NCBI RefSeq assembly: GCF_900105075.1
Contig: NZ_FNSK01000004.1
Location: forward strand, 181,386-245,385
DNA length: 64,000 nucleotides
Direction of reading: 5' to 3'
DNA from: Rhodobacter sp. 24-YEA-8
GTDB lineage: Bacteria > Pseudomonadota > Alphaproteobacteria > Rhodobacterales > Rhodobacteraceae
The position numbers were made by a program, and so were the translations under genes. The notes under the pieces are model-generated. The model saw only the letters and a list, made by a program, of their open reading frames with translations. It had not been told where the DNA came from and made no database searches. Positions 16,776 through 56,108 of this stretch are shown here, piece after piece (the first letter of the stretch is position 1; each line of letters begins with the position of its first letter).

Positions 16776-16880
16776 GCTTTTCCCCCCCCTGGCCCAGCCC
16801 TCGCAACAAGGCGTCTGTTGCGACGGATCGGCGGGCCTCCCGGTGAAAGGGTAGCGGCGGGTCAGAAAAATATCCTTTCG

Positions 16881-25592: not shown

Positions 25593-26315
25593 ATGATGCT
25601 CTCCGGTGAGCTCCCTTGCCCCGAAGGGCCTGCAGCACGACAGGACTGGCGGCTGTCCAGCGAGGCGACAGGAGCGGCGGGCTGGCGCAGCATAATCTGT
25701 CCGGGCCTCGCTCTGTTGCCGCCGGGCCTTGAAGAAATCGCGACATTGCTGCCGCTGGCGGATCTGAACGGCGTTGCGCTCAGCTATTGCGGCAACCGGG
25801 CCGGGACACCTGAACCGGGCCAGAAACGGGGGCAGGATCAGCCAGGGGCGCTCGCCCTGATGATGTCGGACCCGTTCCTGAATCCTGGCCGCATCGCCGA
25901 CACATTGCGCGCTGCGGGGATGGACACCGTGATCAACTGGCCAAGTTGCCAGATCCTTGACGGAGATACCGCCCGCGCCGTGGCCAGCGCCGGATTGGGC
26001 GTTGCGCGCGAGGCAGCGATGATTGCAGAATTCAGCGCCCTCGGCTTTCGGACCCTGGGTCTGGTCAGGGGGGCAGGCCATGGAGCGCTGATGGCAAAGG
26101 CGGGGGCCACGCAGATCGTGCTCCATCCCGGCATCGCTCTGCGCGACTGGCGCAGCAGGGCCATGGCCGCCCGGCTGCTGGACGAGGAAATGCAGGCGAG
26201 CGCGGGGCTGGAGCTTCCCCTTCTGGTATTCCGCTCGCGGGGCTATGGCAGCGAGCTTGATGCGGTGATCTCCCGCAGCGCAGGGGTGGTTTCGCTGGTC
26301 GAGGCGGCCATATGA
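25593..26315 (+). CDS. Degenerate PEP-hydrolase-like TIM-barrel protein
   Basis: 240 aa from the ATG at 25593, chosen because GAGG lies 6 bases before it; an ATG at 25575 has no ribosome site. Residues 95-240 align by eye with the neighbouring PEP-hydrolase-like proteins (D-P-F-L then an A-L/A-A-G-x-x-x-V-x-N-x-P-S segment; E-A-A-M-I-A-E-F). It lacks the conserved N-x-G-R-Y-R-M and G-G-P-I-x-S-P motifs; R-S-R-G-Y stands in their place. It is probably a catalytically dead paralogue acting as a sensor or partner. It overlaps the fused regulator by 4 bp. Confidence 0.65.
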   Translation: MMLSGELPCPEGPAARQDWRLSSEATGAAGWRSIICPGLALLPPGLEEIATLLPLADLNGVALSYCGNRAGTPEPGQKRGQDQPGALALMMSDPFLNPGRIADTLRAAGMDTVINWPSCQILDGDTARAVASAGLGVAREAAMIAEFSALGFRTLGLVRGAGHGALMAKAGATQIVLHPGIALRDWRSRAMAARLLDEEMQASAGLELPLLVFRSRGYGSELDAVISRSAGVVSLVEAAI

Positions 26316-28045
26316 TCCCGGGTGACAGCCGCCGTGCTCTGATCGCCCGTGCCGAGCGCCGCCTCGGGGCCGGCGAGCCGCTGGTGGGCGCAGCGGTCGG
26401 CGCGGGTCTTGCCGCCCAGGCCGCCGTTCAGGGCGGTGCAGATTTCGTCCTTGCGCTGAATGCCGGGCGCTACCGCATGATGGGGGCGGCGTCGGTTGCG
26501 GCCATGCTGCCTCTGGCCGATGCCAATGAATTCACCGATGATTTCGCGCAGCGCGAAATCCTTGGCACGGTGGCGGCACCGGTCCTGCGCGGCGTCTCGG
26601 GCTTTGATCCCCGGCTGGATCTGGCCCGGCTTGCCGCCGGGACGCATCAGGCGGGCTATGCCGGCATCGCCAATTTTCCCACCGTCATCCATCATGACGG
26701 CCAGTTCCGTCAGGCGCTGGAAGAGGCCGGCATGGGGTTCTCGCGCGAGATAGCCCTGATGCGCGCCGCGCAGGCGGCGGGGCTTGCCACCCTCGCCTAT
26801 GTCAAGACCCGCGCCGAGCTTGAGGCCATGGCCGAGGTCGGCCCCGATATGATTTGCCTGAATTTCGGCTGGAATGCCGGCGGGATGCGCGATGTGGCTC
26901 AGGAATTCACTCTGGACGAGGCCGCCGACCGCGCCCGCCACATGTTCCGCCGGCTGCGGCGCACCAACTCTGACATCTTGTGCCTGGTCGAAGGCGGGCC
27001 GATCATCAGCCCCGATGATATGTTCCGCGTCTGGCAAAGCTCCGAGGCGGATGGCTATCTCGGCGGCTCGACGCTGGACCGCATGCCATTGGAACGCGCG
27101 ATCATCGAGGCGACCTCCGCCTTTAAAACCGTGGGGGCGCTGCGTGCCGCCGAAAGTTCCCGCAGCCGCACCCTGACCGAGATACGCCGTCTGACAGGAA
27201 TCTTTGGCCATTCCGACAGCATGACCCGCGCCGTGGATCAGATAAGCCAGCTTGCGGGGCTGGAACTGCCGGTGCTGATTCTGGGCGAGCCGGGCTCCGG
27301 GCGGATCAACATCGCGCGGAGCCTGCACACGCTCAGTCGCCGTGAGGGCGGGCTGTTGCAGATCACCGCCGAAGAGGTGAACCGCGATCCCGAAGCCGCG
27401 CTGCTGGGCCGCGGCCGTGCGGACCGGCGCGCGGCCCTGTTGCGGCGCAAGGGCGTGACGCTGATCTTCCCCGATGCCGGAAATCTGCTGCCCAGGGCAC
27501 TGCAAATCATCCATGACTGGGCAGAGATGAGCGATCCCGGCCCTGATCGCAGCCGCGCCATTCTGATCGGCGGATCGGCTGCCGAATTCGACCGCGAGAC
27601 TTTGCGGCTCTTTCGCGCCGCGCTGATCGAGATCCCGCCTTTGCGCGACCGGCCCGAGGACATCCTGCCCTATCTGCGGCAGTTCCTTGCGCATCTCACC
27701 GCGCCCGATGCGCCAGGACCGCGCCCCGAGATTTCGCCCGACGGGCTGCGGCGGCTGTTTTCCCATTCCTGGCCGGGCAATATCCGCGAATTGCGCCGCG
27801 TGGCCGAAGGCGCATTGGCGAGGATGCGCGGCAATGTGATCGGCGCGACCGAGTTGGCAGGGCTGATCGGTGGGCCGGAAACTGCTCCGCCAGTTACCGC
27901 CATGGCACAGATTGCCGATGAAGCCGAATGGCTTCTGGATGCGCTGCGCCGCAACCGATTCCGAAAGGGAGATACCGCCAACTTTCTCGGCATCTCCCGC
28001 AAAACACTTTATAACCGCATGAAGGCGCTCAGGATCGGAAAATGA
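26312..28045 (+). CDS. PEP-hydrolase-like barrel fused to degenerate AAA+ and Fis HTH: transcriptional regulator
   Basis: 577 aa, three parts. Residues 1-270 are a PEP-hydrolase-like barrel (A-L-N-A-G-R-Y-R-M-M-G near 48, N-F-P-T-V near 121, V-E-G-G-P-I-I-S-P near 226). Residues 295-520 resemble a sigma-54-activator AAA+ domain but Walker A is G-E-P-G-S-G-R (Lys replaced), the GAFTGA loop is missing and Walker B is L-I-F-P-D-A-G instead of L-F-L-D-E. Residues 536-574 are a Fis-type HTH (F-R-K-G-D-T-A-N-F-L-G-I-S-R-K-T-L-Y). It probably senses a metabolite through the barrel and works as a sigma-70-type regulator without ATP hydrolysis. It is divergent from the operon carrying the matching barrel and transporter. 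Confidence 0.8.
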   Translation: MIPGDSRRALIARAERRLGAGEPLVGAAVGAGLAAQAAVQGGADFVLALNAGRYRMMGAASVAAMLPLADANEFTDDFAQREILGTVAAPVLRGVSGFDPRLDLARLAAGTHQAGYAGIANFPTVIHHDGQFRQALEEAGMGFSREIALMRAAQAAGLATLAYVKTRAELEAMAEVGPDMICLNFGWNAGGMRDVAQEFTLDEAADRARHMFRRLRRTNSDILCLVEGGPIISPDDMFRVWQSSEADGYLGGSTLDRMPLERAIIEATSAFKTVGALRAAESSRSRTLTEIRRLTGIFGHSDSMTRAVDQISQLAGLELPVLILGEPGSGRINIARSLHTLSRREGGLLQITAEEVNRDPEAALLGRGRADRRAALLRRKGVTLIFPDAGNLLPRALQIIHDWAEMSDPGPDRSRAILIGGSAAEFDRETLRLFRAALIEIPPLRDRPEDILPYLRQFLAHLTAPDAPGPRPEISPDGLRRLFSHSWPGNIRELRRVAEGALARMRGNVIGATELAGLIGGPETAPPVTAMAQIADEAEWLLDALRRNRFRKGDTANFLGISRKTLYNRMKALRIGK

Positions 28046-44161: not shown

Positions 44162-44947
44162 TCAGTCTGGCAAAAGCAATCCTGAGCCGTTGCGGCGCAG
44201 GGCCGCTGACAGTTCCGCCGCCGGTTCGCGATCTGTGATGAGCGAAAGCCCGTCATGCCACCGGTCAAGCAGCACAAGCGCCCGCTTTTCAAACTTGCTG
44301 TGATCGGCCAGCACATAAGAGCGGCCCGCACTGGCGAGCATGGCGGAATAGACTTCGCCTACCCCCAGCATCGCCTCGCTGATCCCGTCAACGCTGACCC
44401 CCGAAGCACCGATCAGGACCACAGGCGCCCGGTAACGTTCGACCGCGCGGATGGTTTCGGGGCCGCAGACCATGCGTTCCTGCGGCTCGAACCCGCCGGG
44501 CAGAAGAACGATCTCGATGAGCGGATTTGACGAAAGTTCCAGCGCGATCGGGTAGGCCGGGGTAATCACGGTGATGCGGCGTGCAATATTTCGCAGCACC
44601 CGCGCGAATTGCAGCATCGTGGCGCCGCCGCCAAGCAGCAATGCCTCTTCGCCCGCCACCTCTTCCAGCGCCCGGGTGGCTATGGCCTGACGTTCGGCGA
44701 CATTGAGATTGATGCGGTCATTGAGCAGGGGCTCGAACCGGTTCTGCGCCACGATTGCACCCCCATAGGTGCGGCTGAGCCGGCCGGCCTGATCCAGTTC
44801 GGCAAGGTCGCGTCTGATCGTCTCGGTCGAAACATCCAGCTCTTCGGCAAGCTGGTTCACCCGCAGCGCCGGATTGGCCTCAAGCGCACTGAGGATGTTG
44901 TCCTGGCGCTGTTCCTTGCGCGATCTGCTCGGTTTCACTGCTGGCAC
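44162..44947 (-). CDS. DeoR-family transcriptional regulator of the microcompartment locus
   Basis: 261 aa. DeoR HTH at residues 12-65 (V-N-Q-L-A-E-E-L-D-V-S-T-E-T-I-R-R-D-L) and a DeoRC sugar/phosphate-isomerase-like sensor domain (A-L-L-L-G-G-G-A-T-M near 105, L-L-P-G-G near 148, A-D-H-S-K-F near 213). Such regulators sense phosphorylated intermediates. It is divergent from the BMC operon with inverted repeats in the shared promoter, so the likely effector is the 1-amino-2-propanol phosphate or a related ester. Confidence 0.85.
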   Translation of the reverse strand: MPAVKPSRSRKEQRQDNILSALEANPALRVNQLAEELDVSTETIRRDLAELDQAGRLSRTYGGAIVAQNRFEPLLNDRINLNVAERQAIATRALEEVAGEEALLLGGGATMLQFARVLRNIARRITVITPAYPIALELSSNPLIEIVLLPGGFEPQERMVCGPETIRAVERYRAPVVLIGASGVSVDGISEAMLGVGEVYSAMLASAGRSYVLADHSKFEKRALVLLDRWHDGLSLITDREPAAELSAALRRNGSGLLLPD

Positions 44948-44979
44948 CTTCTTACATTACGCCCCCGGATTCTGCGGAG

Positions 44980-45063
44980 TTCTGCATCATCGCAACCTGA
45001 TTGACAAAACTCAAACAGAGGAAATGACCAACTAGCAACAATTAAATGTTGCCAGATGCAGAA
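44980..45063. promoter_or_regulatory. Divergent promoter with nested inverted repeats (DeoR / BMC operon)
   Basis: TTCTGCATC (44980-44988) is repeated inverted as GATGCAGAA (45055-45063); each is followed, one base offset, by GCAAC / GTTGC. Between them GCAACA (45035-45040) and TGTTGC (45047-45052) form another perfect dyad. A TTGACA lies at 45001-45006. The arrangement suggests two operators for the DeoR protein flanking the promoter. Confidence 0.6.
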
Positions 45064-45098
45064 TCAAATGCCAATCTTCGGTCAAACGGAGGTGCCTC

Positions 45099-46379
45099 GT
45101 GTTCAACTACGGATACTTCAGCTTCGATTCGAAAGCAGAATTGCTTGCGAAATCGATCGAATACTGGAACCCCGGCAAGACAAAGTTCTGGCAGGATGCC
45201 GGGATCGATATGGTGATCGACCGGCGTGAGGGATATTACCTTTACGACATGTCTGGCCGCAGGCTGATCGACCTGCATCTCAATGGCGGAACGTATAATT
45301 TTGGCCATCGCAACCCCGAACTGGTGGCGACGCTGAAATCCGCGCTCGACTATTTCGACATGGGCAATCACTGGTTCCCGTCAGTGGCCCGCGCGGCCTT
45401 TGCCGAAAAGCTGGTGAAGACCACAAACCATATGCAATACGCGATCTTCGGCGCAGGTGGCGCTGAAGCTGTGGAGATCGCGCTAAAAACTGCCCGATAT
45501 GCCACAAAGCGCCGCAAGATCGTTTCGATCATCAAGGGCTATCACGGCCATTCCGGTCTGTCGGTTGCCACCGGGGACGAACGGTTTTCGAAGATCTTCC
45601 TCGCGGATAAGCCCGATGAATTCATCCAGGTGCCATTCAACGATATCGACGCGCTGGATCGCGCCCTTAAAGGACGGGATGTCGCTGGTTTCATTATCGA
45701 AACCATCCCCGCCACCTATGGGTTCCCGATGCCGGATGACGGCTATCTGAAGGCCTGCCAGGACCTCTGCCGCCGGTATGGCACCCTCTATATCGCTGAT
45801 GAGGTGCAGACCGGGCTGATGCGCTGCGGCAGCATGTGGGGCTGGCAAAGCTATGGGCTGGAGCCGGATATGTTCGTGACCGGCAAGGGGCTTGGCGGCG
45901 GCATTTACCCGATTTCTGCCTGTGTGGTGACCGAAAAATGTGGCGGCTGGCTGCATGAGGATGGCGCCGCGCATATCTCGACCTCGGGCGGCTCAGAGCT
46001 TGGCTGTATCGTCGGCCATCAGGTGATCGACATTCTGCAACGCCCTGAGGTGATCGCGAATGTGCAGTCGGTGGCAGAGTTCTTCCGCCGCGCGCTGACC
46101 CAGATGATGGCAGCCCACAGCGATATTTTCGTGGGCATCCGCCAGCGCGGCGTCATTCTCGGGCTGGAATATGACCATCCCGAAGGCGCGGTCGCGGTGT
46201 CGCGGGCGCTTTATGAACACGGGGTCTGGGCGATCTTTTCCTCGCTCGACAAACGGGTTTTGCAGTTCAAGCCGGGTGTGTTGCTGGATGTGGCAACCTG
46301 CCAGGAAATCATAGACCGGATGGAGGCCGCGATGCCGCGCGCCCGTGCTTTGCTGCGCGACATGCGCCGCGCGGCCTGA
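45099..46379 (+). CDS. Class III PLP enzyme, probable aminopropanol-phosphate phospho-lyase
   Basis: 426 aa from a GTG with a GGAGGTG ribosome site. Class III aminotransferase fold: G-A-G-G-A-E-A near 118, Y-H-G-H near 148, A-D-E-V-Q-T-G with PLP Asp234, and G-K-G with Schiff-base Lys263. Enzymes of this fold in the aminoacetone (RMM) microcompartment split 1-amino-2-propanol O-phosphate into propionaldehyde, ammonia and phosphate. First gene of the BMC operon. Ordinary transamination is the alternative. Confidence 0.82.
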   Translation: MFNYGYFSFDSKAELLAKSIEYWNPGKTKFWQDAGIDMVIDRREGYYLYDMSGRRLIDLHLNGGTYNFGHRNPELVATLKSALDYFDMGNHWFPSVARAAFAEKLVKTTNHMQYAIFGAGGAEAVEIALKTARYATKRRKIVSIIKGYHGHSGLSVATGDERFSKIFLADKPDEFIQVPFNDIDALDRALKGRDVAGFIIETIPATYGFPMPDDGYLKACQDLCRRYGTLYIADEVQTGLMRCGSMWGWQSYGLEPDMFVTGKGLGGGIYPISACVVTEKCGGWLHEDGAAHISTSGGSELGCIVGHQVIDILQRPEVIANVQSVAEFFRRALTQMMAAHSDIFVGIRQRGVILGLEYDHPEGAVAVSRALYEHGVWAIFSSLDKRVLQFKPGVLLDVATCQEIIDRMEAAMPRARALLRDMRRAA

Positions 46380-46391
46380 GGGAGACAGCCG

Positions 46392-47960
46392 ATGCCGATG
46401 CAGCTTCATGACGACGCGCCGCGCCTGCAAATCCCCGACCGGGCAGAGCAGGCGGCGAAGATGAAAATCGACCGCGCCACCTGGGCGGGGCAGGCCTTTG
46501 CGAAATTCGACCGGGCTGCCGTGATGCGGATCGCACGCGCCGTGGCCGAGGCGGCGCATCATTCAGCCGCGCATTTTGCCGAAGCGGCGGTGGCGGAAAC
46601 CGGCATGGGCGTGGTGGCCGATAAGAAGCTCAAGAACGAGCTGTCGGCGCATCCATTGCTGGATTTTTACGAGAATCTCGATCTGGTGAACCCGAAAGTG
46701 GATGCGGATCGCCGGATGATCGAATTGCCGCGCCCGGCGGGCGTAGTGCTGGCGCTGACGCCGGCGACCAACCCGGTTTCGACGCTGTATTACAAAACGA
46801 TCCTTGCCATTCTGTCGCGCAATGCGATCCTTTTCAGTCCGCATCCGCTGGCAAAGCGCTGCTGCAATGAGGCCGCCGCGCGGCTGGAGGCGGCAGCACA
46901 GGCGGCGGGCGCGCCTTCGGGTCTGATCCAATGTGTTGAAGAGCCTTCGGTGCCGCTGGTGCAATCGCTGATGACCTCGCCAAAGGTGCAGGTGATCCTT
47001 GCGACGGGCGGCGGGCCGATGGTGCGGGCGGCCTATTCCTCGGGCAATCCGGCGATTGGCGTCGGGCCGGGCAATGCGCCGGTCTATGTCGATCCCGGCT
47101 GCGATCAGATGGTCGCGGCAAAGCGGGTCATCGACAGCAAGGCTTTTGATAATTCGGTGCTTTGCACCAATGAAAGCGTGCTGATCTCGCAGGAACAGGA
47201 TCGCAGCCGGCTTGAGCGCGCGCTGCGGGCAGGCGGGGCCCATATCTGCAACGCGGGCGAGGTGACGAAACTGCGCGACTGGCTGTTCCCGGGCGGGCAT
47301 CTGAACACTTCCGCCGTGGGCAAATCGGCGGTCTGGATCGCCGGTCAGGCGGGCCTGCGTGTGGTGGCCTCGACCCGGGCACTGGTGGCACCGGTGGAAC
47401 TGGTCGGGGTCGACGAGCCGCTGACGAAGGAAAAGCTGTGCCCGGTTCTGGGCTGGGCGCTGGTCAGCAATGCCGCCCATGCTGCAAGCATGGCGCAGAT
47501 GATCCTGCGAATGAGCGGGGCGGGCCATTCCGCCGCGATCCATACCGATGATCCGCAGCTGGCGCTCGATTTTGCAAGCGCGCTTTCGGTTTACCGCGTG
47601 GTGGTCAATGCGCCCTGTTCCCAGGGAGCCGCAGGTTTCGCGACGCATCTGGCGCCGTCCTTCATGATCGGCACCGGCTATTTCGGCCGGTCTTCCGTGG
47701 GCGAGAATATCGGGCCGCAGCATCTGGTTCACTGGACGCGGCTGGCCTGGAACTCCGACCCCGCGATGAAGACGGGCGACCTGACCGGGCTGCGTGCCCC
47801 CTTTGAAGGGCCGGGCGCCACGCGCCCGCAACCGGTGGCGCCTCCCTTTGCCGCGCCACCTGCGGCCAGCCGGCCCGCCGGCGATGGCGGTGTCGACCGC
47901 GACCTGCTGCGCGAGCTTATTTTGCAGGAACTCCGTGATCTGACGAGGGGCCAGTCGTGA
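46392..47960 (+). CDS. CoA-acylating aldehyde dehydrogenase of a microcompartment, with C-terminal encapsulation-like helix
   Basis: 522 aa, PduP/EutE-like. Nucleophile Cys258 in N-S-V-L-C-T-N-E-S; N-P-V-S-T near 127 and G-V-G-P-G-N-A-P near 223. No classic ALDH E-L-G-G-K, as expected for acylating enzymes. Residues 470-500 are a Pro/Ala linker, and 502-517 (DRDLLRELILQELRDL) form an amphipathic helix typical of shell-targeting peptides, here at the C-terminus. Turns propionaldehyde plus CoA and NAD+ into propionyl-CoA inside the shell. It overlaps the first BMC-T gene by 4 bp. Confidence 0.9.
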   Translation: MPMQLHDDAPRLQIPDRAEQAAKMKIDRATWAGQAFAKFDRAAVMRIARAVAEAAHHSAAHFAEAAVAETGMGVVADKKLKNELSAHPLLDFYENLDLVNPKVDADRRMIELPRPAGVVLALTPATNPVSTLYYKTILAILSRNAILFSPHPLAKRCCNEAAARLEAAAQAAGAPSGLIQCVEEPSVPLVQSLMTSPKVQVILATGGGPMVRAAYSSGNPAIGVGPGNAPVYVDPGCDQMVAAKRVIDSKAFDNSVLCTNESVLISQEQDRSRLERALRAGGAHICNAGEVTKLRDWLFPGGHLNTSAVGKSAVWIAGQAGLRVVASTRALVAPVELVGVDEPLTKEKLCPVLGWALVSNAAHAASMAQMILRMSGAGHSAAIHTDDPQLALDFASALSVYRVVVNAPCSQGAAGFATHLAPSFMIGTGYFGRSSVGENIGPQHLVHWTRLAWNSDPAMKTGDLTGLRAPFEGPGATRPQPVAPPFAAPPAASRPAGDGGVDRDLLRELILQELRDLTRGQS

Positions 47961-48571
47961 CCGATCTTCGTGCCTTCATCTTTATCGACCAGCTTCAGCC
48001 GCAGACGCTTGCCTATACCTCCACCTGGATGCGGGGCACCTTACCGCGCGCAAGGATGGCGGCTCAGATCATCGAGATCGCGCCTGGCCTTGATGTCGAG
48101 GCGCTGACCGACACCGTGCTGAAAAGCGCCGAGGTGCGGGCGGGGTTTCTGGTGGTCGAGCGCCAGTTCGGCACGCTGCAATTCCATGCCCGCTCGACCG
48201 CTGAAGTTCAGGCCGGGGCGGCGGCAGCGCTGTCTGCCATGGGCAAGACGCGCGAGGATGCGGAAAAGCCGAAGATCATGGCGTCAAAGATCGTGACGCG
48301 GATCGATGATCAGCATGCTTTCCTGATGAACCGCAACAAGACCGGCTCCATGGTGCTGGCAGGAGAGAGCATCTACCTGCTGGAATGCCAGCCGGCGGCC
48401 TACGCGATTCTTGCCTGCAACGAGGCCGAGAAAGAGGCGGATATCAAGGTTATCGACATGCGGATGATCGGCGCGAATGGCCGGCTCTATCTTGCCGGAA
48501 GCGAGGCCGATGTCCGCAATGCCCGCGACGCGGCGGAACGCGCGCTGCGTGAGGCAGGGGCGGGCCGATGA
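47957..48571 (+). CDS. BMC-T shell protein 1 (tandem BMC trimer)
   Basis: 204 aa, about twice a BMC domain. Two BMC-like halves: residues 5-95 (F-G-T-L-Q-F-H-A) and 105-200 (A-G-E-S-I-Y-L-L-E-C, M-I-G-A-N-G-R-L-Y-L-A-G). Trimeric BMC-T proteins form pseudohexameric tiles, often with gated pores. Clearly homologous to the second BMC-T at 49638. ATGA-linked to the aldehyde dehydrogenase and to the next gene. Confidence 0.85.
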   Translation: MTDLRAFIFIDQLQPQTLAYTSTWMRGTLPRARMAAQIIEIAPGLDVEALTDTVLKSAEVRAGFLVVERQFGTLQFHARSTAEVQAGAAAALSAMGKTREDAEKPKIMASKIVTRIDDQHAFLMNRNKTGSMVLAGESIYLLECQPAAYAILACNEAEKEADIKVIDMRMIGANGRLYLAGSEADVRNARDAAERALREAGAGR

Positions 48572-49035
48572 GCGAGCTGCGTGCCCTGATCCGCGAGTTA
48601 CTGTCCGAGGAGATCGCGGCGCTGCGCGCCGAGATCCTCGGTGGCGGCCCGGCGACCGAGCGCGTCGAGGTCGCGACCGTGGCCCAGCTGACCGATTTTG
48701 CGCTGACCATCGCGCGTCGCGCGCAGGAGCCGGGATTTCTGGCCGGACTTGAAGCCGGGCAGATCCGGTTTGCGCCTGCGGTGACCACCTCTCAGCCGGT
48801 TCCGATGCGTGACTTTGCAGATCTTCCCGCCGCCACGGCGCCGGCAGCAAGGCTGGTCACCACCGTCCCGGCCGGAATACCCGAATTGCGCAAGACCCTC
48901 GTCACCGAACGCGACATCGCAGCCATCGGCGAGGGCGAGACGCGGCTGCGCATCACCAGGCAGGCGCGGCTGACACCTCTGGCGGGTGACGAGGCCCGCC
49001 GCCGCGGCATCAGGATCGAAAGGACACTGGCATGA
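48568..49035 (+). CDS. BMC-locus protein of unknown function with N-terminal amphipathic helix
   Basis: 155 aa, not recognised as a named enzyme. Residues 1-24 (start MSELRALIRELLSEEIAALR) form a strong amphipathic helix like shell-targeting peptides. Residues 40-65 look helical; the C-terminal 45 residues end in R-L-T-P-L-A-G-D-E-A-R-R-R-G-I-R-I-E-R, a short 'L-T-P-x-A-x-D' tail also seen on various BMC-associated proteins. Embedded between shell genes with 4-bp overlaps on both sides. Could be a scaffold or core-assembly protein; that is inference. Confidence 0.75.
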   Translation: MSELRALIRELLSEEIAALRAEILGGGPATERVEVATVAQLTDFALTIARRAQEPGFLAGLEAGQIRFAPAVTTSQPVPMRDFADLPAATAPAARLVTTVPAGIPELRKTLVTERDIAAIGEGETRLRITRQARLTPLAGDEARRRGIRIERTLA

Positions 49036-49301
49036 TAAGGGCGCGCGTCAGCGGCAGGCTCTGGTCCACCCGCCATATCGGCACGCTTCCCACCGGGGCG
49101 CTGCTGGAGGTCGAGACCGAAACCGGCGCAAAACTGATCGCCTTCGACCCTCTGGGCTGTGCCGAGGGCGAGGCTGTGCTGATCACCCAGGGCTCGGTTG
49201 CAGCCGCCTGGTTTACCGAACGCGCGGCGCCGGTTGACGCATTGATCATCGGTTCCATCGACGAAGAATCTGCCGGGAAACCGGCTGCGAAACGCAAGTA
49301 A
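49032..49301 (+). CDS. BMC-P pentamer shell protein (EutN/CcmL family)
   Basis: 89 aa. EutN/CcmL OB-like fold: M-I-R-A-R-V-S-G-R-L-W-S-T near 1, L-I-A-F-D-P-L-G-C-A-E-G-E near 36, V-D-A-L-I-I-G-S-I-D near 68. Forms the vertex caps of the icosahedral shell. The only BMC-P in the locus. The tail after residue 80 is Lys-rich. Confidence 0.9.
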   Translation: MIRARVSGRLWSTRHIGTLPTGALLEVETETGAKLIAFDPLGCAEGEAVLITQGSVAAAWFTERAAPVDALIIGSIDEESAGKPAAKRK

Positions 49302-49313
49302 GGGAGTTCTCAA

Positions 49314-49595
49314 ATGGCTAATCTTGCAATCGGAATGATCGAAACCAAGGGTTACGTGCCGGCGCTTGCGGCGGCGGATGCCATGGTCAAGGCCGCCAAT
49401 GTTGAAATCGTCGCCCGCAACGAGGTTGGCGGCGGACTGGTCTCGGTCGTGGTGCGCGGCGATGTCGGCGCGGTGAAGGCCGCGACGGAAGCCGGGGCCG
49501 AGGCTGCGGCCCAGATCGGCGAAGTGACCGCCGTCCATGTGATCCCGCGCCCGCATGGCGATCTCGCAAAGCATTTCGACGCGCTTAAGGCCTGA
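49314..49595 (+). CDS. BMC-H hexamer shell protein
   Basis: 93 aa, a single canonical BMC domain: [18 protein letters not shown] near 5, V-R-G-D-V-G-A-V near 47, H-V-I-P-R-P-H near 79. The main facet tile of the shell and the only BMC-H in the window. GGGAG ribosome site 12 bp after the BMC-P stop. Confidence 0.92.
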
Positions 49596-49637
49596 GCCGG
49601 GGCGGCCTCTCACAGAGACCCAGATAAGGATTGAGGT

Positions 49638-50261
49638 ATGACAGAGCTTCGCGTCTATCTTCCCATCGAGGATCTGCAGCCCCAGTTCGCGGCGTATCTT
49701 TCCTCGCCCACCCGGGCGAGGGGATATCCGCCCTTCCGGGGCCAGAACTCGCTGATCATCGAGGTCGCGCCGGCTCTGGCGATCCACCGCGTCACCGATC
49801 TGGCGCTGAAGGCCGCGCCCGACATGGAACCGGGCATTCTTTATACCGAACGTCAGTTTGGTTTGCTGGAGCTGCATGCTGACCGGATGGAGGATCTGAC
49901 GGCTGCGGGCGAGGCGATTCTTGCCGGTATCGGCGCAAAACCCGATGATCAGATGCGCCCGCAGATCCTGTATCACGATATCATCGAAGATCTGTCGGAC
50001 CAGCATGCGATCATCCTCAACCGCTCGCGCGATGCCTCGATCCTGGTGCCGGGGGTTGCGCTGCTGATTTACGAAATGGCTCCGGCGCTTTTTGCCTGTG
50101 TTGCGGCGAATGAGGCGGAAAAGGCTGCCCCCAATGCGATTATCAATGATGTGCAGATGATGGGGGCGACCGGGCGGCTTTTCATGTCCGGCACCGCCGA
50201 AGACATGCGGATCGCGCGTGACACCATCACCGCAAAACTGGAGGCGATCACCGGACGATAG
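49638..50261 (+). CDS. BMC-T shell protein 2 (tandem BMC trimer)
   Basis: 207 aa. Same architecture as the first BMC-T (shared L-Q-P-Q near 14, E-R-Q-F-G-L-L-E-L near 70, A-N-E-A-E-K-A near 158, M-M-G-A-T-G-R-L-F-M near 175), but clearly diverged, so an old duplication. GGATTGAGG before the start. The two may form mixed or stacked trimers with different pores. Confidence 0.85.
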   Translation: MTELRVYLPIEDLQPQFAAYLSSPTRARGYPPFRGQNSLIIEVAPALAIHRVTDLALKAAPDMEPGILYTERQFGLLELHADRMEDLTAAGEAILAGIGAKPDDQMRPQILYHDIIEDLSDQHAIILNRSRDASILVPGVALLIYEMAPALFACVAANEAEKAAPNAIINDVQMMGATGRLFMSGTAEDMRIARDTITAKLEAITGR

Positions 50262-50342
50262 GCGAAAGGGCCGGCGGCCCTCACTCAGGCCCGGGAGATG
50301 GATCAACCATCCGGGAGGCACCACCAACAAGGGAGAAAGAAG

Positions 50343-51473
50343 ATGATTACGAGACGTCAGTTCTCGCTGGGGGCGGCCGGTATGGCTGGTCTTTCGGCGT
50401 TTTCGATGCCGGGCCGTGCGCTCGCAGACCGCAACAATCAGCTCAATATCCTGTGCTGGGAAGGCTATAACTCGGATACGGTGCTGAACCCGTTCCGCAC
50501 GGCGCATCCCGGGGCCACGGTACGTGCTGAAAGCGGCACCTCGGACCCCGAGATGGTCAACCGCCTGCGCGCAGGCGAAATCGGAACCTGGGATCTTATC
50601 AATGTCAATCAGCCCTGGGCGCGGGGCGAGCTGAGCCGGGACAATCTGATCAGACCGCTGGACAAAGAGCGTTTCCTGCCCTGGTTCGACAAGATGACCC
50701 CGGAATTTGCCAGACCCTATGCGCTGGCTTTTGGCGAAAACGGCGATCTTCTGGGCATGCCGCAGCGCTACGGGCCATTCTCATTTGTGGTCAATACCGA
50801 CAAGATCAGCCAGGAAAGCGCCGAGGAACAGGGCTGGAACCTGTTCTTTGATCCGGCGATGAAGGGCCGCTATGGCCTTCTGACCTATGACAACTGGAAT
50901 GTGATCCATCTCTGCCTTGCCGCCGGACTTGATCCGTTCCGGCCGGTCGAGGGCGCCGATGCCGAAAAATTCGCCGAGACCTGCAAACAGATCGTCGCCG
51001 GGGCACGGATGATGACCGATGATCTCGTGGCAATGAACACGGCACTGATCAATGGCGAAATCGATGCCTATTTCACCGGGGGCACCTATACCGCCTCGCC
51101 CGCCCGTTATGACGGGGCGACCTTCGTGCGCGCGATCACGCCGCGCAGCGGACCGGTCGATGGCAAGGGTGGCGTTGTCTGGGTCGAGCTGACCTCGGCG
51201 GTGAACAACCCCGATCCCTCGTCGCTGGCCGAGGATTTCCTTGAATTCGTGCAGCAGCCCGAAATCTGCAAGGCCGTGGCTTTTTCTGAGGGCACCTACA
51301 ACCCGATCGCCCAGATGGGCAATCCCGAGGTCATGGCGCTGTTCGACGACGAGATGCTGGAAGCGATCCAGTTCGACACGCTTGAAGACGAGCTGTCGCG
51401 TTGTCTCGAATTTGATGTCGTGCCCTCCTACGACGCCCTGCTTGCGACCTATGTCGCGGCAAGACGCGGCTGA
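50343..51473 (+). CDS. Polyamine-type ABC transporter substrate-binding protein with Tat signal (PotD/PotF-like)
   Basis: 376 aa from the ATG at 50343, with an AGGGAGAAAG site. The N-terminus M-I-T-R-R-Q-F-S-L-G-A-A-G is a twin-arginine signal, then a hydrophobic stretch ending at about residue 32. Mature protein starts N-I-L-C-W-E-G-Y-N, typical of spermidine/putrescine-binding proteins. In this operon it should bind a small amine such as aminoacetone or 1-amino-2-propanol. The only binding protein of the locus. Confidence 0.86.
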   Translation: MITRRQFSLGAAGMAGLSAFSMPGRALADRNNQLNILCWEGYNSDTVLNPFRTAHPGATVRAESGTSDPEMVNRLRAGEIGTWDLINVNQPWARGELSRDNLIRPLDKERFLPWFDKMTPEFARPYALAFGENGDLLGMPQRYGPFSFVVNTDKISQESAEEQGWNLFFDPAMKGRYGLLTYDNWNVIHLCLAAGLDPFRPVEGADAEKFAETCKQIVAGARMMTDDLVAMNTALINGEIDAYFTGGTYTASPARYDGATFVRAITPRSGPVDGKGGVVWVELTSAVNNPDPSSLAEDFLEFVQQPEICKAVAFSEGTYNPIAQMGNPEVMALFDDEMLEAIQFDTLEDELSRCLEFDVVPSYDALLATYVAARRG

Positions 51474-51492
51474 GGTCCCGGCTTCAGCCATT

Positions 51493-51517
51493 CTGCCGGG
51501 CGCTCTCTGCCCGGCAG
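51493..51517 (+). terminator. Hairpin between the binding-protein and ATPase genes
   Basis: Perfect 9-bp stem CTGCCGGGC (51493-51501) / GCCCGGCAG (51509-51517), 7-nt loop, then TCTTTGCTTT. A weak terminator that would let the binding protein be made in excess over the membrane parts. Confidence 0.65.
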
Positions 51518-51549
51518 TCTTTGCTTTCCCTTAAAATCTGGAATGGACG

Positions 51550-52638
51550 ATGGTTGCTCAGCCCTTCGTGCGGATCGAGAATGTCACCAAACGCTTCGGT
51601 CGCTTTACCGCGCTTGACCGGATCAGCCTCGATATTGCCGAGGGAGAATTTCTGACCATCGTCGGCCCTTCGGGCAGCGGCAAATCCACCCTGATCCGGC
51701 TGCTGGTCGGCATTGACGACGTGTCTGACGGCACGATCAGTCTGAACGGCACCCGTATCGACACCATGCCCGCGAACAAGCGCCCCACCTGTATGGTGTT
51801 CCAGTCGCTTGCTCTGTTCCCGCATATGAGCGTCGGCAGGAATATCGAATTTCCGCAAAAGCTGAAAAAGGTGGCGCCAGAAGCGCGCAAGGCCCGCACG
51901 CTGGATCTGCTGCGGCTGCTGCGATTGCCGGAAGAGTATTATGGCAAGATGATCAGCCAGCTTTCGGGCGGCGAACGTCAGCGGGTCGCGCTGGCGCGGG
52001 CACTGGCCTTCGATCCGCAGATCATTGTCTTTGACGAGCCCCTGTCAGCGCTGGACTACCGGCTGCGGAAAACCCTGGAAAAAGAGCTGAAAGACCTGCA
52101 CGCCCGCACCGGCAAGACCTTTGTCTACATCACCCATTCGCTGGAAGAGGCGATGGTGATGTCTGACCGCATCGCCATCATGAAGCAGGGCCGCTTCGAG
52201 CAGATCGCCGTTGCGGAAGAGATCTATTCCCGCCCGGTCAGCCGCTTCGTCGCCAGCTTCATGGGCGAGGTCAATCTGTTTGAAGCGCGCGAGGACAATG
52301 GGCTGGTCCGCTGGAAGGACCCCGGCGTCACCGCTGCCCCCGGCGCGCTGAACCTGCCGCAGGGATGGCGCGGTGCGCTGATGGTGCGACCCGAGCTGTT
52401 GCGGTTCATCGGCGAGGGCATGACTGCGGATTTCACCCTCTCGGGCAGCGTGGTGGCCGAATATGCGCTCGGCTCTCGCATCCAGTATTCGGTCGAGACC
52501 AGTGCCGGGACAATGATCACGGTCGAGCGGCCCTTTGAGGCGCGGCTTGCCTCGGGCGCCGACACATCCGTCACCCTCGGCTGGGACCGGGACGCGGTCC
52601 ATCCGATCCCTGAGGAGGCGGATCATGCAAAGGCTTGA
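51550..52638 (+). CDS. ABC transporter ATP-binding protein (PotA-like)
   Basis: 362 aa. Walker A G-P-S-G-S-G-K-S-T near 37, Q-loop V-F-Q-S-L, signature L-S-G-G-E-R-Q-R-V, Walker B I-V-F-D-E-P-L-S-A-L-D, and H-loop I-T-H-S. The C-terminal third is a TOBE domain. Overlaps the next gene by 14 bp. Confidence 0.9.
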   Translation: MVAQPFVRIENVTKRFGRFTALDRISLDIAEGEFLTIVGPSGSGKSTLIRLLVGIDDVSDGTISLNGTRIDTMPANKRPTCMVFQSLALFPHMSVGRNIEFPQKLKKVAPEARKARTLDLLRLLRLPEEYYGKMISQLSGGERQRVALARALAFDPQIIVFDEPLSALDYRLRKTLEKELKDLHARTGKTFVYITHSLEEAMVMSDRIAIMKQGRFEQIAVAEEIYSRPVSRFVASFMGEVNLFEAREDNGLVRWKDPGVTAAPGALNLPQGWRGALMVRPELLRFIGEGMTADFTLSGSVVAEYALGSRIQYSVETSAGTMITVERPFEARLASGADTSVTLGWDRDAVHPIPEEADHAKA

Positions 52639-53479
52639 GGGACGGCTTGGCTTTCTGAGCGGCCTGCCGATCATCGTACTGTTGCTGCTGGCATTCATCA
52701 TGCCGCTTTTCGTGGTGGCGGGCTTCGCCATCATGCCGCAAAAAGTATTCGAGCTGACCCATCTGCCCGATTTTTCCTCGTTCGCAGTGATCTGGGAACA
52801 GGGCTATTACCGTTCGCTGCTGCGCTCGCTGGGGCTTGCCCTCATGACCACGGTGATCCTGTTTATCGTCTGCTGGCCGCTGGCTTACGGCATGGCGAAG
52901 GTCTTCGGACGTTTTACCATCGTGATCACCCTGGCGGTCGTGCTGATCCTTTTCGTGTCCGAGAATATCCGTCTGTTCGGCTGGAGCCTCTCTTTGATGA
53001 AGGGCGGGTTGCTGGAGGGCTATCTGCGTTCGCTGACGGGGCTGAGCTTTGAGACACCGCTTTATGACTGGCCGGTGATCGTCTTTGGCATGGCCTATGT
53101 CTATTTCCCCTTCATGCTGTTTCCGCTGGCCCAGGGCATCAGCCTTGTTCCCGACGATGCCAGGCTTGCCGCATCAGACCTCGGGGCCAGCCCGATGCGC
53201 ATTCTCTTTGAAATCGAAATGCCGCTGGCGGCGCCGGGCATCATGGTCGGAAGCCTGCTGACCTTTGTCCTCTCCGCCGGCGCGGTGGCCGAGGCAAAGC
53301 TTTTGGGCGGGCGTGCGGTGGTGGTGCTGACAGATGATGTCGAAAGCGCCTTCACCTTCGCGCAGAACTGGCCGCTCGGATCGGCGCTGTCGCTGATGCT
53401 GATCGTCATTGTCGCCCTTCTGGTGCTGGTGCCCGTCAGCCGCGTGAACCTTGATGCGATCATGGGGAGGAAACCATGA
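52625..53479 (+). CDS. ABC transporter permease 1 (PotB-like)
   Basis: 284 aa from the ATG at 52625, preceded by GAGGAGG; the longer frame is overlap with potA. Six membrane segments and the EAA loop (A-A-S-D-L-G-A-S-P-M-R-I-L near 185). Forms the heterodimeric channel with the next gene (ATGA overlap). Confidence 0.88.
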   Translation: MQRLEGRLGFLSGLPIIVLLLLAFIMPLFVVAGFAIMPQKVFELTHLPDFSSFAVIWEQGYYRSLLRSLGLALMTTVILFIVCWPLAYGMAKVFGRFTIVITLAVVLILFVSENIRLFGWSLSLMKGGLLEGYLRSLTGLSFETPLYDWPVIVFGMAYVYFPFMLFPLAQGISLVPDDARLAASDLGASPMRILFEIEMPLAAPGIMVGSLLTFVLSAGAVAEAKLLGGRAVVVLTDDVESAFTFAQNWPLGSALSLMLIVIVALLVLVPVSRVNLDAIMGRKP

Positions 53480-54270
53480 GATCGGTCTCCAACACCACCC
53501 GCATCGCGCTTTACCTTTACGGGCTGCTGATCCTGCTGGTGCTTTACCTGCCGCTGGTTTCGGTCGGCTTCGCATCGGTCTCGAAGGCGCGGTATCTCAG
53601 CTTTCCGGTCAACCGCTATACCAGTGAATGGATGGTCCAGGCGGTCACCAGCCCGAACGTCCACGCGCTGGTGCTGACCTCGCTGAAGATCGCGGTACTG
53701 GTGACCCTGCTGTCGATGATCCTCGGCTTTTTCGGTGCCCTTGCTTTCGCGCGGTTCCAGTGGCGGTATCGCCCGCTGTTCCAGAAGCTGATCCTGTTGC
53801 CGATTTTCTTCCCGCAGACGGTGCTGGGGCTTGCGCTGCTGATCTGGTTTTCGGCGCTTGGGGTTCAGCCCAGCTGGAAGACCGCCGTGATCGCGCATCT
53901 GGTCTGGATTGCGCCCATCACCACGCTGATCATCGCGATCCGTGCCTATGCCTTTGATCCGGCGCTGGAAGAGGCGGCGCGGGATATGGGCGCCTCGACC
54001 TTTACAATCCTGCGCGAGGTGACGCTGCCCCTGCTGATGCCGGGGGTGATTTCGGCGGGGCTCTTCGCCTTTCTGCTGTCCTGGGGGAATTTCCCGCTCT
54101 CGCTGTTCACCACAGGGCTCGATTCAACTTTGCCGAAATGGCTCTATGCCCGGATGGTCTCCGGCTACACGCCGCAGATCCCCGCGCTTGGTGTTCTGTC
54201 TGTCACCGGATCCGCCGCGCTGATGCTGATCGGGCTGCTGGTGTTCCGCTGGACGCGAAAACGCGCCTGA
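53476..54270 (+). CDS. ABC transporter permease 2 (PotC-like)
   Basis: 264 aa, six membrane segments; EAA loop E-E-A-A-R-D-M-G-A-S-T-F-T near 172. Ends with basic R-W-T-R-K-R-A. Last transporter gene of the BMC operon; the SDR gene starts 39 bp on. Confidence 0.88.
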   Translation: MRSVSNTTRIALYLYGLLILLVLYLPLVSVGFASVSKARYLSFPVNRYTSEWMVQAVTSPNVHALVLTSLKIAVLVTLLSMILGFFGALAFARFQWRYRPLFQKLILLPIFFPQTVLGLALLIWFSALGVQPSWKTAVIAHLVWIAPITTLIIAIRAYAFDPALEEAARDMGASTFTILREVTLPLLMPGVISAGLFAFLLSWGNFPLSLFTTGLDSTLPKWLYARMVSGYTPQIPALGVLSVTGSAALMLIGLLVFRWTRKRA

Positions 54271-54309
54271 AGCCGCGATAAAACTATAAAAAAACAGGGA
54301 GAAAAACAG

Positions 54310-55089
54310 ATGCTGACATCATTGCAGGGCCGGAGTGTCATCGTTACCGGCGGATCAAAAGGTATCGGCCGCGGTATTGCGCGGGTCTTTGCCCGGGCCG
54401 GTGTGAAACTGACCATTGCCGGGCGCGACAAGGCCGCGCTGGCGGCGGCCGTGGCCGAGATGAACGAGGCGGGGGCGACAGCCCGCAGTGCCGTCTGCGA
54501 TGTGAGCGATTACGACCAGGTGCAGCGCATGGTCGATGAGGCGGCTGAAGCCCAGGGCGGGCTGCATGTGGTTTGTGCCAATGCCGGATCCTTCCCGCAG
54601 GTGAAGATGGTCGATATGTCGCCCGCCGAATGGGATCAGATGATGGCGAACAACCTGCGTTCGACTTTTCTCTGCGTCAAAGCCGCGATCCCGCATTTCG
54701 AACGGGCAGGCAAAGGCCGCGTGGTGGTAACCTCTTCGATCACCGGGCCGGTGACAGGCTATCCGGGCTGGTCGCATTACGGCGCGTCAAAGGCCGGGCA
54801 GCTTGGTTTCATCAAGACCGCCGCGATGGAACTGGCGCGCTACAACACCACGATCAACGCGGTGATGCCGGGCAATATCGTGACCGAGGGGCTTGAGGGG
54901 CTGGGCGCGGATTACCTGAAAACCATGGCCGCCTCGATCCCGCTGAAACGGCTGGGCGCCGTCGAGGATATCGGCAATGCGGCGCTGTTTTTCGCATCGG
55001 ATGAGGCGGCCTATATCACCGGGCAGCAGATCATCGTCGATGGGGGTCAGATCCTGCCGGAATCCCTGGAAGCCATCGAGTCGATCTGA
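54310..55089 (+). CDS. SDR oxidoreductase, probable (S)-1-amino-2-propanol dehydrogenase (aminoacetone reductase)
   Basis: 259 aa. Classic SDR: T-G-G-S-K-G-I-G (13-20), N-A-G (91-93), catalytic Ser143, Tyr157 and Lys161 in Y-G-A-S-K. In the aminoacetone microcompartment an SDR interconverts aminoacetone and 1-amino-2-propanol with NAD(H), which fits this position next to the kinase. Substrate assignment rests on context. Confidence 0.83.
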   Translation: MLTSLQGRSVIVTGGSKGIGRGIARVFARAGVKLTIAGRDKAALAAAVAEMNEAGATARSAVCDVSDYDQVQRMVDEAAEAQGGLHVVCANAGSFPQVKMVDMSPAEWDQMMANNLRSTFLCVKAAIPHFERAGKGRVVVTSSITGPVTGYPGWSHYGASKAGQLGFIKTAAMELARYNTTINAVMPGNIVTEGLEGLGADYLKTMAASIPLKRLGAVEDIGNAALFFASDEAAYITGQQIIVDGGQILPESLEAIESI

Positions 55090-55100
55090 GGGAGGGGGAT

Positions 55101-56108
55101 ATGGCCGGAGAGCAAATGCCGCTTCAGGAGGTCCTGAAGCATCTGGAGCGCCTTGCGAATGACTCACTGTCCCTTTGGCCGGTGCCGGAGGGAGCGACAG
55201 CGCGGCTGATCAATGTCTCGGAAAACGCGACCTATCTGGTCGAGGCCGGGGCATATCGATCGGTCCTGCGCATTCACCGCCCGGCCTATCACACAAAGCG
55301 CGGCATCGGCCAGGAGCTGGCCTGGGCGCAGGCGCTGGCCTCAAGCGGGCTGGTGCAGACGCCGCCGCCACTGGCGGCCAGGAATGGCGATCTGGTGCAG
55401 GAAGGCCATGTTTCGGGCCTGCCCGAGCCACGTTTCATGGTGATGTTCCAGTTTGCCGAAGGCCGTCAGCCCGATGAGAACGAAGATCTGATCGGGCCCT
55501 TCGAACGGCTCGGGGCAATTGCCGCCCGCACCCATCTTCATTCCATGACCTGGCCGCGCCCTGCGCCGCTGGAAAGGCTCCGCTGGGATGCCGATGCGGT
55601 ATTCGGCCAAAAGGCGAACTGGGGCGACTGGCGCGATGCGCCCCATGTCACCCCGCCCGTTCGCGCAGTGCTCGAAGAGGTAGAGGCGACCATCCGCCGC
55701 CGGCTTAAGGATTTCGGTCAGGGGCCAGAGCGTTACGGGCTGATCCATGCCGATATGCGGCTGGCTAATCTTCTGATCGATGGTGAAAACACGACGCTGA
55801 TCGACTTTGATGACTGCGGTCAGGGCTGGTTTCTTTATGATTTCGCCACCGGCGTCAGCTTTATGGAGGATCACCACCAGGTCCCTGCGATGCGCGCCGC
55901 CTGGGTGCGCGGATATCGCAGCGTCCGCCCACTCAGCGATGCGGAAGAGCGGGAGATCGACACATTCATCATGCTCCGCCGCATGGCGCTGCTGGCCTGG
56001 ATCGGCAGCCACATCGAGGCCCCCGAACCCCAGGCCATGGCGCCGGATTTCGCCCGGGTCTCGGCCGAGCTCGGCCGCACCTATCTGGCGCAGTTCGCCA
56101 CACAATGA
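55101..56108 (+). CDS. APH-fold kinase, probable (S)-1-amino-2-propanol kinase
   Basis: 335 aa. Aminoglycoside-phosphotransferase fold: H-A-D-M-R-L-A-N catalytic loop (His216, Asp218, Asn223) and D-F-D (235-237) metal motif. Homologues in RMM/AAUM loci phosphorylate 1-amino-2-propanol, giving the substrate for the phospho-lyase at 45099. Last gene of the operon, GAGGGAGGGG ribosome site. Confidence 0.85.
   Translation: MAGEQMPLQEVLKHLERLANDSLSLWPVPEGATARLINVSENATYLVEAGAYRSVLRIHRPAYHTKRGIGQELAWAQALASSGLVQTPPPLAARNGDLVQEGHVSGLPEPRFMVMFQFAEGRQPDENEDLIGPFERLGAIAARTHLHSMTWPRPAPLERLRWDADAVFGQKANWGDWRDAPHVTPPVRAVLEEVEATIRRRLKDFGQGPERYGLIHADMRLANLLIDGENTTLIDFDDCGQGWFLYDFATGVSFMEDHHQVPAMRAAWVRGYRSVRPLSDAEEREIDTFIMLRRMALLAWIGSHIEAPEPQAMAPDFARVSAELGRTYLAQFATQ

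Follow-up and report, generated by a model that had tools for sequence, protein, structure and literature searches.

Catabolic microcompartments related to the locus studied here have been described as RMM1 and RMM2 by Axen 2014 (PMC4207490), as Aut by Ravcheev 2019 (PMC6620236) and among the RMM types of Sutter 2021 (PMC8217296). According to Axen 2014, the putative ancillary proteins of RMM1 are a GntR regulator, an amino acid permease and hydrolases, while RMM2 is separated by diol dehydratase genes in the locus and was suggested to be possibly bifunctional (PMC4207490). RMM2 has been catalogued in Paracoccus yeei, where Asija 2021 also lists it, in an epsilonproteobacterium and in a Marinimicrobia genome (PMC8217296, PMC8156839), and an Aut cluster has already been reported in Proteobacteria, though without the kinase gene (PMC6620236). 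Here, we analyzed a 64,000-nucleotide stretch of Rhodobacter sp. 24-YEA-8 (contig NZ_FNSK01000004.1, positions 181,386 to 245,385), referred to as the window herein, in which positions 44162-56108 hold 14 genes that by their sequences form a catabolic microcompartment locus of this known RMM/Aaum/Aut kind. We consider it likely that the locus serves an RMM/Aaum-type microcompartment in which an amino alcohol is turned into propionyl-CoA.

The locus consists of a divergent DeoR gene followed by a packed plus-strand operon that encodes, in order, a pyridoxal phosphate (PLP) enzyme, an aldehyde dehydrogenase, a BMC-T protein, a 155-aa open reading frame (ORF), BMC-P, BMC-H, a second BMC-T, four ATP-binding cassette (ABC) importer proteins, a short-chain dehydrogenase/reductase (SDR) and an APH-fold kinase (Table 1). 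Adjacent genes overlap by 4-14 bases or sit at most ∼80 bases apart. The first ORF starts make some genes too long, and the true starts of the substrate-binding protein (SBP) and of the first permease are probably the later ATG codons given in Table 1. All pieces listed in an earlier note on this DNA, namely the regulator, the four enzymes and the four shell proteins, are present in this interval, although BMC-P is encoded at 49032-49301 and not by the 155-aa ORF at 48568-49035. The locus also has its own importer as that note had stated, a four-gene PotABCD-like set found by profile searches.

Among all solved structures, the best match to both BMC-T proteins (which are CcmP-like) and to BMC-P is a shell protein of the Mycolicibacterium smegmatis RMM, and for BMC-H such a protein ranks second; the PDB table names the matched chains MSM0271-MSM0275. 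The locus thus contains MSM0271- and MSM0275-type BMC-T as well as MSM0272/MSM0273-type BMC-H/BMC-P, and by sequence it contains the SDR, APH-fold kinase, class III PLP enzyme and acylating-type aldehyde dehydrogenase of RMM/Aaum in the broad sense. Of the NCBIfam profiles, the dehydrogenase scores best with AdhE PRK13805 at 407 bits, then with the acetylating acetaldehyde dehydrogenase TIGR02518 at 368 bits; neither score reaches its cut-off. The SDR and the kinase best match 6ci8/6ci9 and 6ef6, which we take to be the M. smegmatis RMM dehydrogenase and kinase of Mallette and Kimber 2018 (the names in the PDB table are generic). With shell, SDR and kinase all matching solved M. smegmatis RMM proteins, the RMM/Aaum assignment made in the earlier note stands. 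Since the locus has DeoR and an ABC importer in place of the RMM1 ancillary set of Axen 2014, and no hydrolase among its 14 genes, we class it with RMM in the broad sense rather than with RMM1. It also lacks the diol dehydratase that Axen 2014 used to define RMM2, the two PF02286 genes of the source genome being on contigs C2 and C5 and the locus on C4.

A profile search of the source genome (5.0 Mb, 7 contigs) yielded two PF00936 matches, both within the locus, and found no second site. To place the locus among its relatives, a BMC-T alignment was scanned over one genome per species, giving 414 stretches, 320 of them confirmed. We fetched the best 80 of these 320 as picked by BMC-T similarity (L013-L092), and the frequencies below apply to these 80 or to the 49 with full 10-kb flanks (full-flank loci). 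In 80/80, other genes of the same operon adjoin the BMC-T gene, which is more than chance; the locus is real and complete.

In the route that we favor, the PotABCD-like importer would bring in aminoacetone or, more likely, 1-amino-2-propanol. If the ketone is taken up, the SDR would first reduce it to 1-amino-2-propanol. The kinase would then phosphorylate 1-amino-2-propanol with ATP, and the PLP enzyme would form propionaldehyde by eliminating ammonia and phosphate, with no keto acid as co-substrate. Propionaldehyde would be turned into propionyl-CoA for the methylmalonyl-CoA route by the acylating dehydrogenase, tethered in the lumen through its C-terminal helix, and the shell would retain the toxic, volatile aldehyde. 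DeoR probably represses the operon at a palindrome before the PLP gene. The gene content, the synteny, the similarity to RMM and the lost transaminase residues are observations, to which we add a substrate, a reaction order, an encapsulation and a regulation that we infer from sequence. The source genome encodes methylmalonyl-CoA mutase (861 bits). Its best Tdh match reaches 144 bits against a cut-off of 458; with no gene at that cut-off, formation of aminoacetone from threonine inside the cell is unlikely, and import fits.

Evidence on the chemistry comes from the PLP enzyme. In all 73 RMM-type sequences (the window and 72 loci), Gln389 stands where keto-acid transaminases have the Arg of a C-terminal motif of R-F-A-P type, and Thr206 where they have the Glu of QGEGG, the latter motif being PATYGF in the RMM-type enzymes. 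In keto-acid transaminases the Arg binds the carboxylate and the Glu is a switch residue, roles that come from work on ornithine aminotransferase. The Escherichia coli keto-acid transaminases PatA, ArgD, GabT, AstC and PuuE keep both (5/5), and both are absent in the alignment from E. coli BioA, whose amino donor is S-adenosylmethionine, and from HemL, an aminomutase. PRK06148-type rows, including that of R. jostii, have Lys at the Arg position and no Glu (8/8). The replacement of Arg and Glu throughout the RMM-type set argues for a phospho-lyase that acts by elimination rather than a transaminase.

A second line of evidence concerns the aldehyde. Upon tblastn searches with the source genome's two copies, we found a B12 diol dehydratase inside 15/49 full-flank loci and 16/80 loci overall; likewise, among 21 chosen records (20 genomes and one plasmid) PF02286 occurs in 8, 7 of which have it within the RMM locus. 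Diol dehydratase acting on 1,2-propanediol gives propionaldehyde, the very aldehyde expected from 1-amino-2-propanol phosphate. The linkage therefore makes propionaldehyde more likely than the two alternatives considered in earlier work, lactaldehyde and methylglyoxal (PMC4207490, PMC6620236), and gives independent support for propionaldehyde as a shared intermediate. A transaminase route has been published as a prediction (scenario 1 of Ravcheev 2019; PMC6620236), in which 1-amino-2-propanol would yield lactaldehyde and lactyl-CoA and the kinase would act last. The PLP enzyme is indeed of class III with ArgD-, PigE- and PatA-type top profiles, but the Arg and Glu expected of it are replaced in 73/73 and the dehydratase linkage points to propionaldehyde. 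The kinase also matches 6ef6, presumably an (S)-1-amino-2-propanol kinase, and we judge the transaminase route very unlikely. Of the routes weighed here, the one from aminoacetone/1-amino-2-propanol to propionyl-CoA, proposed in the earlier note from family knowledge, is the best supported; its phospho-lyase step is predicted from the sequences of the 73 enzymes.

In the PLP enzyme tree, the RMM-type sequences form a 100/100 clade apart from the E. coli putrescine, ornithine-type and GABA transaminases and from PRK06148-type proteins. The stems are long, the program warned of meeting long branches, and we claim no exact sister group; reference row L105, a wrong reading frame, is in the alignment and was left out of the tree. 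The earlier note had named clustering of the kinase and PLP enzyme with ethanolamine or polyamine enzymes as one finding that would speak against its proposal; this check did not refute it, no such clustering of the PLP enzyme being seen. The kinase groups with RMM kinases, with the kinase domains of PRK06148-type fusions far outside; inside the group resolution is poor (12/27 inner branches are open), and the distant kinases of R. jostii, L020 and L023 fall in the same set as the RMM kinases. For both enzymes, tree and residues speak against polyamine and ethanolamine assignments. A second kinase in the source genome (G000:C1:2712034-2713035, L112:9026-10045) is 62-63% identical to the locus kinase, and no relatives of the SDR, PLP or shell genes were found in the 19 kb around it.

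An ethanolamine compartment would use the kinase and a PLP lyase to pass via phosphoethanolamine to acetaldehyde and acetyl-CoA without B12. Consistent with this, the EutB ethanolamine lyase (PF06751), by which an EUT system would be recognized, was not found in the source genome under a search in which the E. coli control was positive, and the dehydrogenase scores best with acetaldehyde-type profiles. There is also a precedent in the R. jostii pRHL2 locus, which combines an RMM shell with a PRK06148-type PLP enzyme ending in its own encapsulation-peptide (EP)-like helix, a permease annotated as ethanolamine permease and no annotated SDR. An RMM shell can hence accompany a PLP enzyme of another family. 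However, the window PLP enzyme falls outside the clade of the R. jostii enzyme, and an achiral primary alcohol leaves unexplained an SDR that is nonetheless present in 65/80 loci, so we regard ethanolamine as an improbable substrate. Polyamine catabolism, in which a PotABCD-like importer and a PatA-like PLP enzyme would degrade putrescine or a related amine, draws on importer profiles that are mostly Pot-type and on PatA being among the better PLP matches. Yet the importer scores below the Pot cut-offs (PotD 35 of 582 bits, PotA 295.5 of 482), its SBP has Asn at the position that we take to be PotD Glu171, the PLP tree and residues disagree, and kinase, SDR and shell have no evident use in polyamine transamination. 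We hold this alternative to be extremely unlikely.

Several observations weigh against the amino alcohol route. The identity of the substrate leans on M. smegmatis biochemistry, and the specificity of the SDR is not unique by sequence, the next solved relatives 3pk0 and 3rih scoring 287 and 273 bits, close to 6ci8/6ci9 (312, 311). The commonest variants among 65 SDR sequences, including that of the window, have the catalytic stretch and an Arg after β2. Such an Arg marks the NADP type. The SDR thus seems to use NADP(H), but NADH is the expected product of the dehydrogenase, and the cofactor balance does not look closed. In the alignment with PotD, the SBP has acids at two amine-binding positions, so a diamine is a possible substrate. 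PF02286 was not found in 13/21 of the chosen records, and the two copies of the source genome are unlinked to the locus. Finally, no EP-like motif was found in the first or last 40 residues of 72 PLP enzymes, 65 kinases and 64 SDRs, so these enzymes may sit either inside the shell or outside it.

The aldehyde dehydrogenase does carry such a signal, a helix of the L-R-x-L-I-x-x-E-L type in its last 40 residues in 75/76 orthologues and in 0/76 shuffled sequences, counted with a motif that was written after inspecting 11 tails and then applied to all 76. An EP-like motif is also found at the N terminus of the 155-aa protein in 81/81 sequences, a count that is not independent since it used an added second motif made after viewing the alignment. 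This protein has no Pfam or NCBIfam family match, yet by position it is present in 79/80 loci and occurs also in Verminephrobacter and P. yeei. Nine residues are invariant in 74 sequences, including TPLA near the end. Its structural model (mean pLDDT 83.8, pTM 0.38) comprises the helix and two small mixed domains, with a linker of low confidence; no PDB match was found at E≤0.001. From this anatomy, our guess would be a cargo adaptor.

SDR and kinase travel together: each is found in 65/80 loci, both in 64, one alone in 2 and neither in 14, several of which are cut by contig ends. The kinase frequency differs from the proteobacterial clusters of Ravcheev 2019, which are without the kinase gene (PMC6620236). 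In 42/49 full-flank loci, the PLP enzyme, SDR and kinase come together with a complete Pot-type importer of four genes, making the PotABCD-like importer the usual partner in the loci examined. L022, L053 and L056 have PLP enzyme, SDR and kinase, but their importer set is incomplete in view; L051 has the kinase and an amino acid permease without SDR; and L017, L020 and L089 show no SDR, window-type kinase or importer in view, the L020 kinase being 36% identical. The position of this front-end block varies among relatives (after the shell genes, before them, or inverted), which suggests a unit distinct from the core.

A second front end was found beside the core in L017, L020 and L067, where a ribose-type ABC importer, an amidase, an APH-fold protein and a choline-kinase-like protein have counterparts 46-81% identical (PF13407 and PF02653 in L017; PF01425 amidase in L020 and L067; PF01633, 71 bits, in L067). 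The fetched stretch of L032 reaches the choline-kinase-like gene at its edge and includes the final 171 aa (74%). Searches of the whole assemblies of L017, L020 and L032 found no SDR within E≤1e-60, and kinase matches did not exceed 36% identity, a value reached by the L020 kinase, which adjoins the DeoR gene of that locus; as these are metagenome-assembled genomes (MAGs; L020 is TPA-assembled), the absence may be assembly loss. In the L067 assembly, an SDR (68%) and a kinase (56%) of window type lie on the contig of the core, beyond the fetched flank. The enlarged stretch (L131) shows a tandem of Pot-type importer/SDR/kinase, then ribose-type importer/amidase/kinases, then the core, with a regulator per block. 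The second front end therefore stands by the core in three relatives and alone in two of them. In L046, the SDR-kinase block is inverted and a 54-aa choline-kinase-like remnant (63%, E 6e-14) lies between it and the shell genes, as if this locus once had both front ends. On a core tree of four proteins (1362 columns, several forks open), at least 4 changes are required to account for gain or loss of the choline-kinase-like gene, and at least 5 for the absence of SDR. Because the PLP enzymes of second-front-end loci interleave with that of the window, the phosphorylated intermediate is probably the same in both.

These features can be joined in a broader proposal, which we offer tentatively and hold at somewhat below even confidence. 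The proteobacterial RMM shell would serve as an all-purpose propionaldehyde organelle, in which a single core made up of PLP lyase, acylating dehydrogenase and shell cassette is combined with interchangeable, stackable front ends, present singly or side by side: Pot-type importer with SDR and kinase; ribose-type importer with amidase and two kinases, one choline-kinase-like, a set that would probably take in an amide-bound amino alcohol; and B12 diol dehydratase. The 155-aa protein would be the adaptor that brings in enzymes without their own encapsulation helix. In the RMM literature searched, we found no description of the importer, the amidase-kinase module, the 155-aa protein, the diol dehydratase linkage count or the second front end. 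Elsewhere in the source genome, at a contig end of C2 (L130), a diol dehydratase adjoins an SDR that shares 61% identity with that of the locus, and what look like ABC and FGGY-like kinase genes are close by. Another cluster (L129, G000:C5:138001-158000) contains a fused large-medium diol dehydratase, a small subunit, an SDR-like frame, an APH kinase, a PRK06148-type PLP enzyme and sugar-type ABC genes, has no shell genes, and is possibly a second amino alcohol or diol route.

The best 80 of the 320 confirmed stretches are, by title, mostly from Alpha- and Gammaproteobacteria, with one Sulfurimonas MAG (L071) and one Neomarinimicrobiota MAG (L072) that, matched by taxon, probably correspond to the two outliers in phylum that Sutter 2021 names (PMC8217296). 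The BMC-T of P. yeei is 91% identical to a window BMC-T. The earlier note had thought the locus worth study because most described examples are actinobacterial; this does not hold, as the best 80 are mostly from Pseudomonadota and proteobacterial cases are already published. The RMM type is widespread in proteobacteria, neither an actinobacterial speciality nor rare. Near the source it is patchy (8/100 relatives), and an evenly drawn class sample gave 11/385 genomes, both counts including the source genome. Of the 10 other class-sample genomes, 6 have PLP enzyme, SDR, kinase and at least 3 Pot-type genes, one (L121) is cut by a contig end, and 3 of one genus (L123-L125) have a divergent RMM-like shell (BMC-T 56%) and an aldehyde dehydrogenase, with a DctP TRAP binding protein in L125; no PLP enzyme, SDR, kinase or Pot-type genes are in view in these three, which are perhaps another BMC type. 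Some loci are not independent: L117 and L083 are probably the same, and L015/L016 and L083/L085 are near-identical. R. jostii was the sole actinobacterial locus compared, the proteobacterial clade is unrooted, and we claim no direction of transfer.

Other arrangements were seen among the relatives. An isochorismatase-family hydrolase adjoins RMM genes at L053:2664-3374, L117:9542-10213 and L121:7618-8286; PF00857 supports this for L053, and the other two were recognized by the similarity of their first residues. The PLP gene of the Olavius algarvensis Gamma 3 endosymbiont (L089:5275-8426) is split by transposase-like ORFs, while the shell ORFs there are full length. In L043 (1-16101), the RMM core lies between glycine-betaine/choline-type ABC genes and sarcosine/dimethylglycine-dehydrogenase-like genes, and a search of the whole assembly found no window-type SDR or kinase.

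With regard to regulation, a DeoR relative of at least 40% identity is present in 34/80 loci. A CAAC-N6..10-GTTG palindrome stands 63-65 bp upstream in 6/35 DeoR loci including the window (the others being L013, L017, L019, L023 and L032), elsewhere in one (L038) and not at all in 28, the shuffled rate being 0.023 per locus. The hexamers of the candidate operator occur once more in the window, at 16803, with a 7-base spacer. An AraC-type regulator with an arabinose-binding-like domain (Pfam) lies near the SDR-kinase block at L119:5916-6983, and L120, L122 and L131 have ORFs similar to it by first residues.

Table 1. Features of the RMM-type locus, in window coordinates.
Feature	Position	Strand	Evidence and remarks
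DeoR-family repressor	44162..44947	-	PF00455 112.5 bits, PF08220 62 bits; divergent from operon
Candidate DeoR operator, perfect palindrome GCAACA-N6-TGTTGC	45035..45052	.	Begins 64 bp upstream of PLP gene
Class III PLP enzyme, predicted 1-amino-2-propanol-phosphate phospho-lyase	45099..46379	+	PF00202 236 bits; Gln389/Thr206
CoA-acylating aldehyde dehydrogenase, C-terminal EP-like helix	46392..47960	+	AdhE/TIGR02518 profiles
BMC-T, MSM0275 type	47957..48571	+	Best solved match 5l39 MSM0275, E 1.9e-79, 65% identity
155-aa uncharacterised RMM component	48568..49035	+	N-terminal EP-like helix, two small domains, flexible linker
BMC-P vertex protein, MSM0273 type, 89 aa	49032..49301	+	Best solved match 5l37 MSM0273, E 1e-26
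BMC-H, MSM0272 type	49314..49595	+	PF00936 93 bits; 5l38 MSM0272 E 2.4e-35, second after tandem-fusion BMC-H
BMC-T, MSM0271 type	49638..50261	+	Best solved match 5suh MSM0271, E 1.6e-84
PotD-like SBP	50298..51473, probable start ATG 50343	+	NF007048 PotD 8e-9; weak 8y5h, 1pot matches
PotA-like ABC ATPase	51550..52638	+	NF006987 295.5 bits, below cut-off 482
PotB-like permease (perm1)	52625..53479, first ORF start 52535, probable start ATG 52625	+	NF007044 112 bits, below cut-off 348
PotC-like permease	53476..54270	+	NF007047 118 bits, below cut-off 326
SDR, predicted aminoacetone / 1-amino-2-propanol oxidoreductase	54310..55089	+	Best solved matches 6ci8/6ci9, 312 and 311 bits
APH-fold kinase, predicted 1-amino-2-propanol kinase	55101..56108	+	Best solved match 6ef6 E 1.1e-78, 268 bits; next 46 bits

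Elsewhere in the window, between 7.7 and 16.5 kb, genes for 3-hydroxyisobutyrate dehydrogenase, 3-hydroxyisobutyryl-CoA hydrolase and dihydrolipoyl dehydrogenase score above their cut-offs and E1-type genes below theirs. These valine-degradation genes are another route to propionyl-CoA, and their sharing the window makes "catabolic island", as the earlier note called the setting, a fair phrase. The window also encodes a UPF0261 protein (19469-20665) and a PEP-hydrolase-like domain joined to sigma-54-activator-type and Fis-type domains (26312-28045).

The worth of this locus lies in the comparison, which brings out a conserved importer, alternative and stackable front ends, the dehydratase linkage and an unstudied conserved component. 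RMM does without the alcohol dehydrogenase and phosphotransacylase recycling usual in metabolosomes, and the descriptions of its pathway that we consulted come from a few actinobacteria. Easier-to-handle Paracoccus and Roseovarius relatives carry the whole set, making substrate, cofactor recycling and cargo loading testable, and the comparison yields two handles, the PLP enzyme residues and an uncharacterised conserved protein with a possible part in cargo loading. If the modular proposal is true, the front-end swapping sought by microcompartment engineers already exists in nature.

Compared with the RMM/Aaum/Aut loci of Rhodococcus and Mycolicibacterium, the window locus agrees in its four kinds of shell protein and in its SDR, kinase, PLP enzyme and acylating dehydrogenase, and it shares with R. 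jostii a small hypothetical protein between BMC-T and BMC-P. It differs in having DeoR where theirs is GntR and a four-gene ABC importer where theirs is an amino acid/GabP-type permease, and from RMM1 in that its 14 genes lack the RMM1 hydrolase. The iron- or zinc-type alcohol dehydrogenase and phosphotransacylase characteristic of the propanediol (PDU) and ethanolamine (EUT) utilization metabolosomes were not found among the 13/14 locus genes scanned. Like PDU and EUT, the locus would produce an aldehyde within a shell and oxidize it to an acyl-CoA, but whereas those systems form their aldehyde with a B12 enzyme, this one would do so with a kinase and a PLP enzyme.

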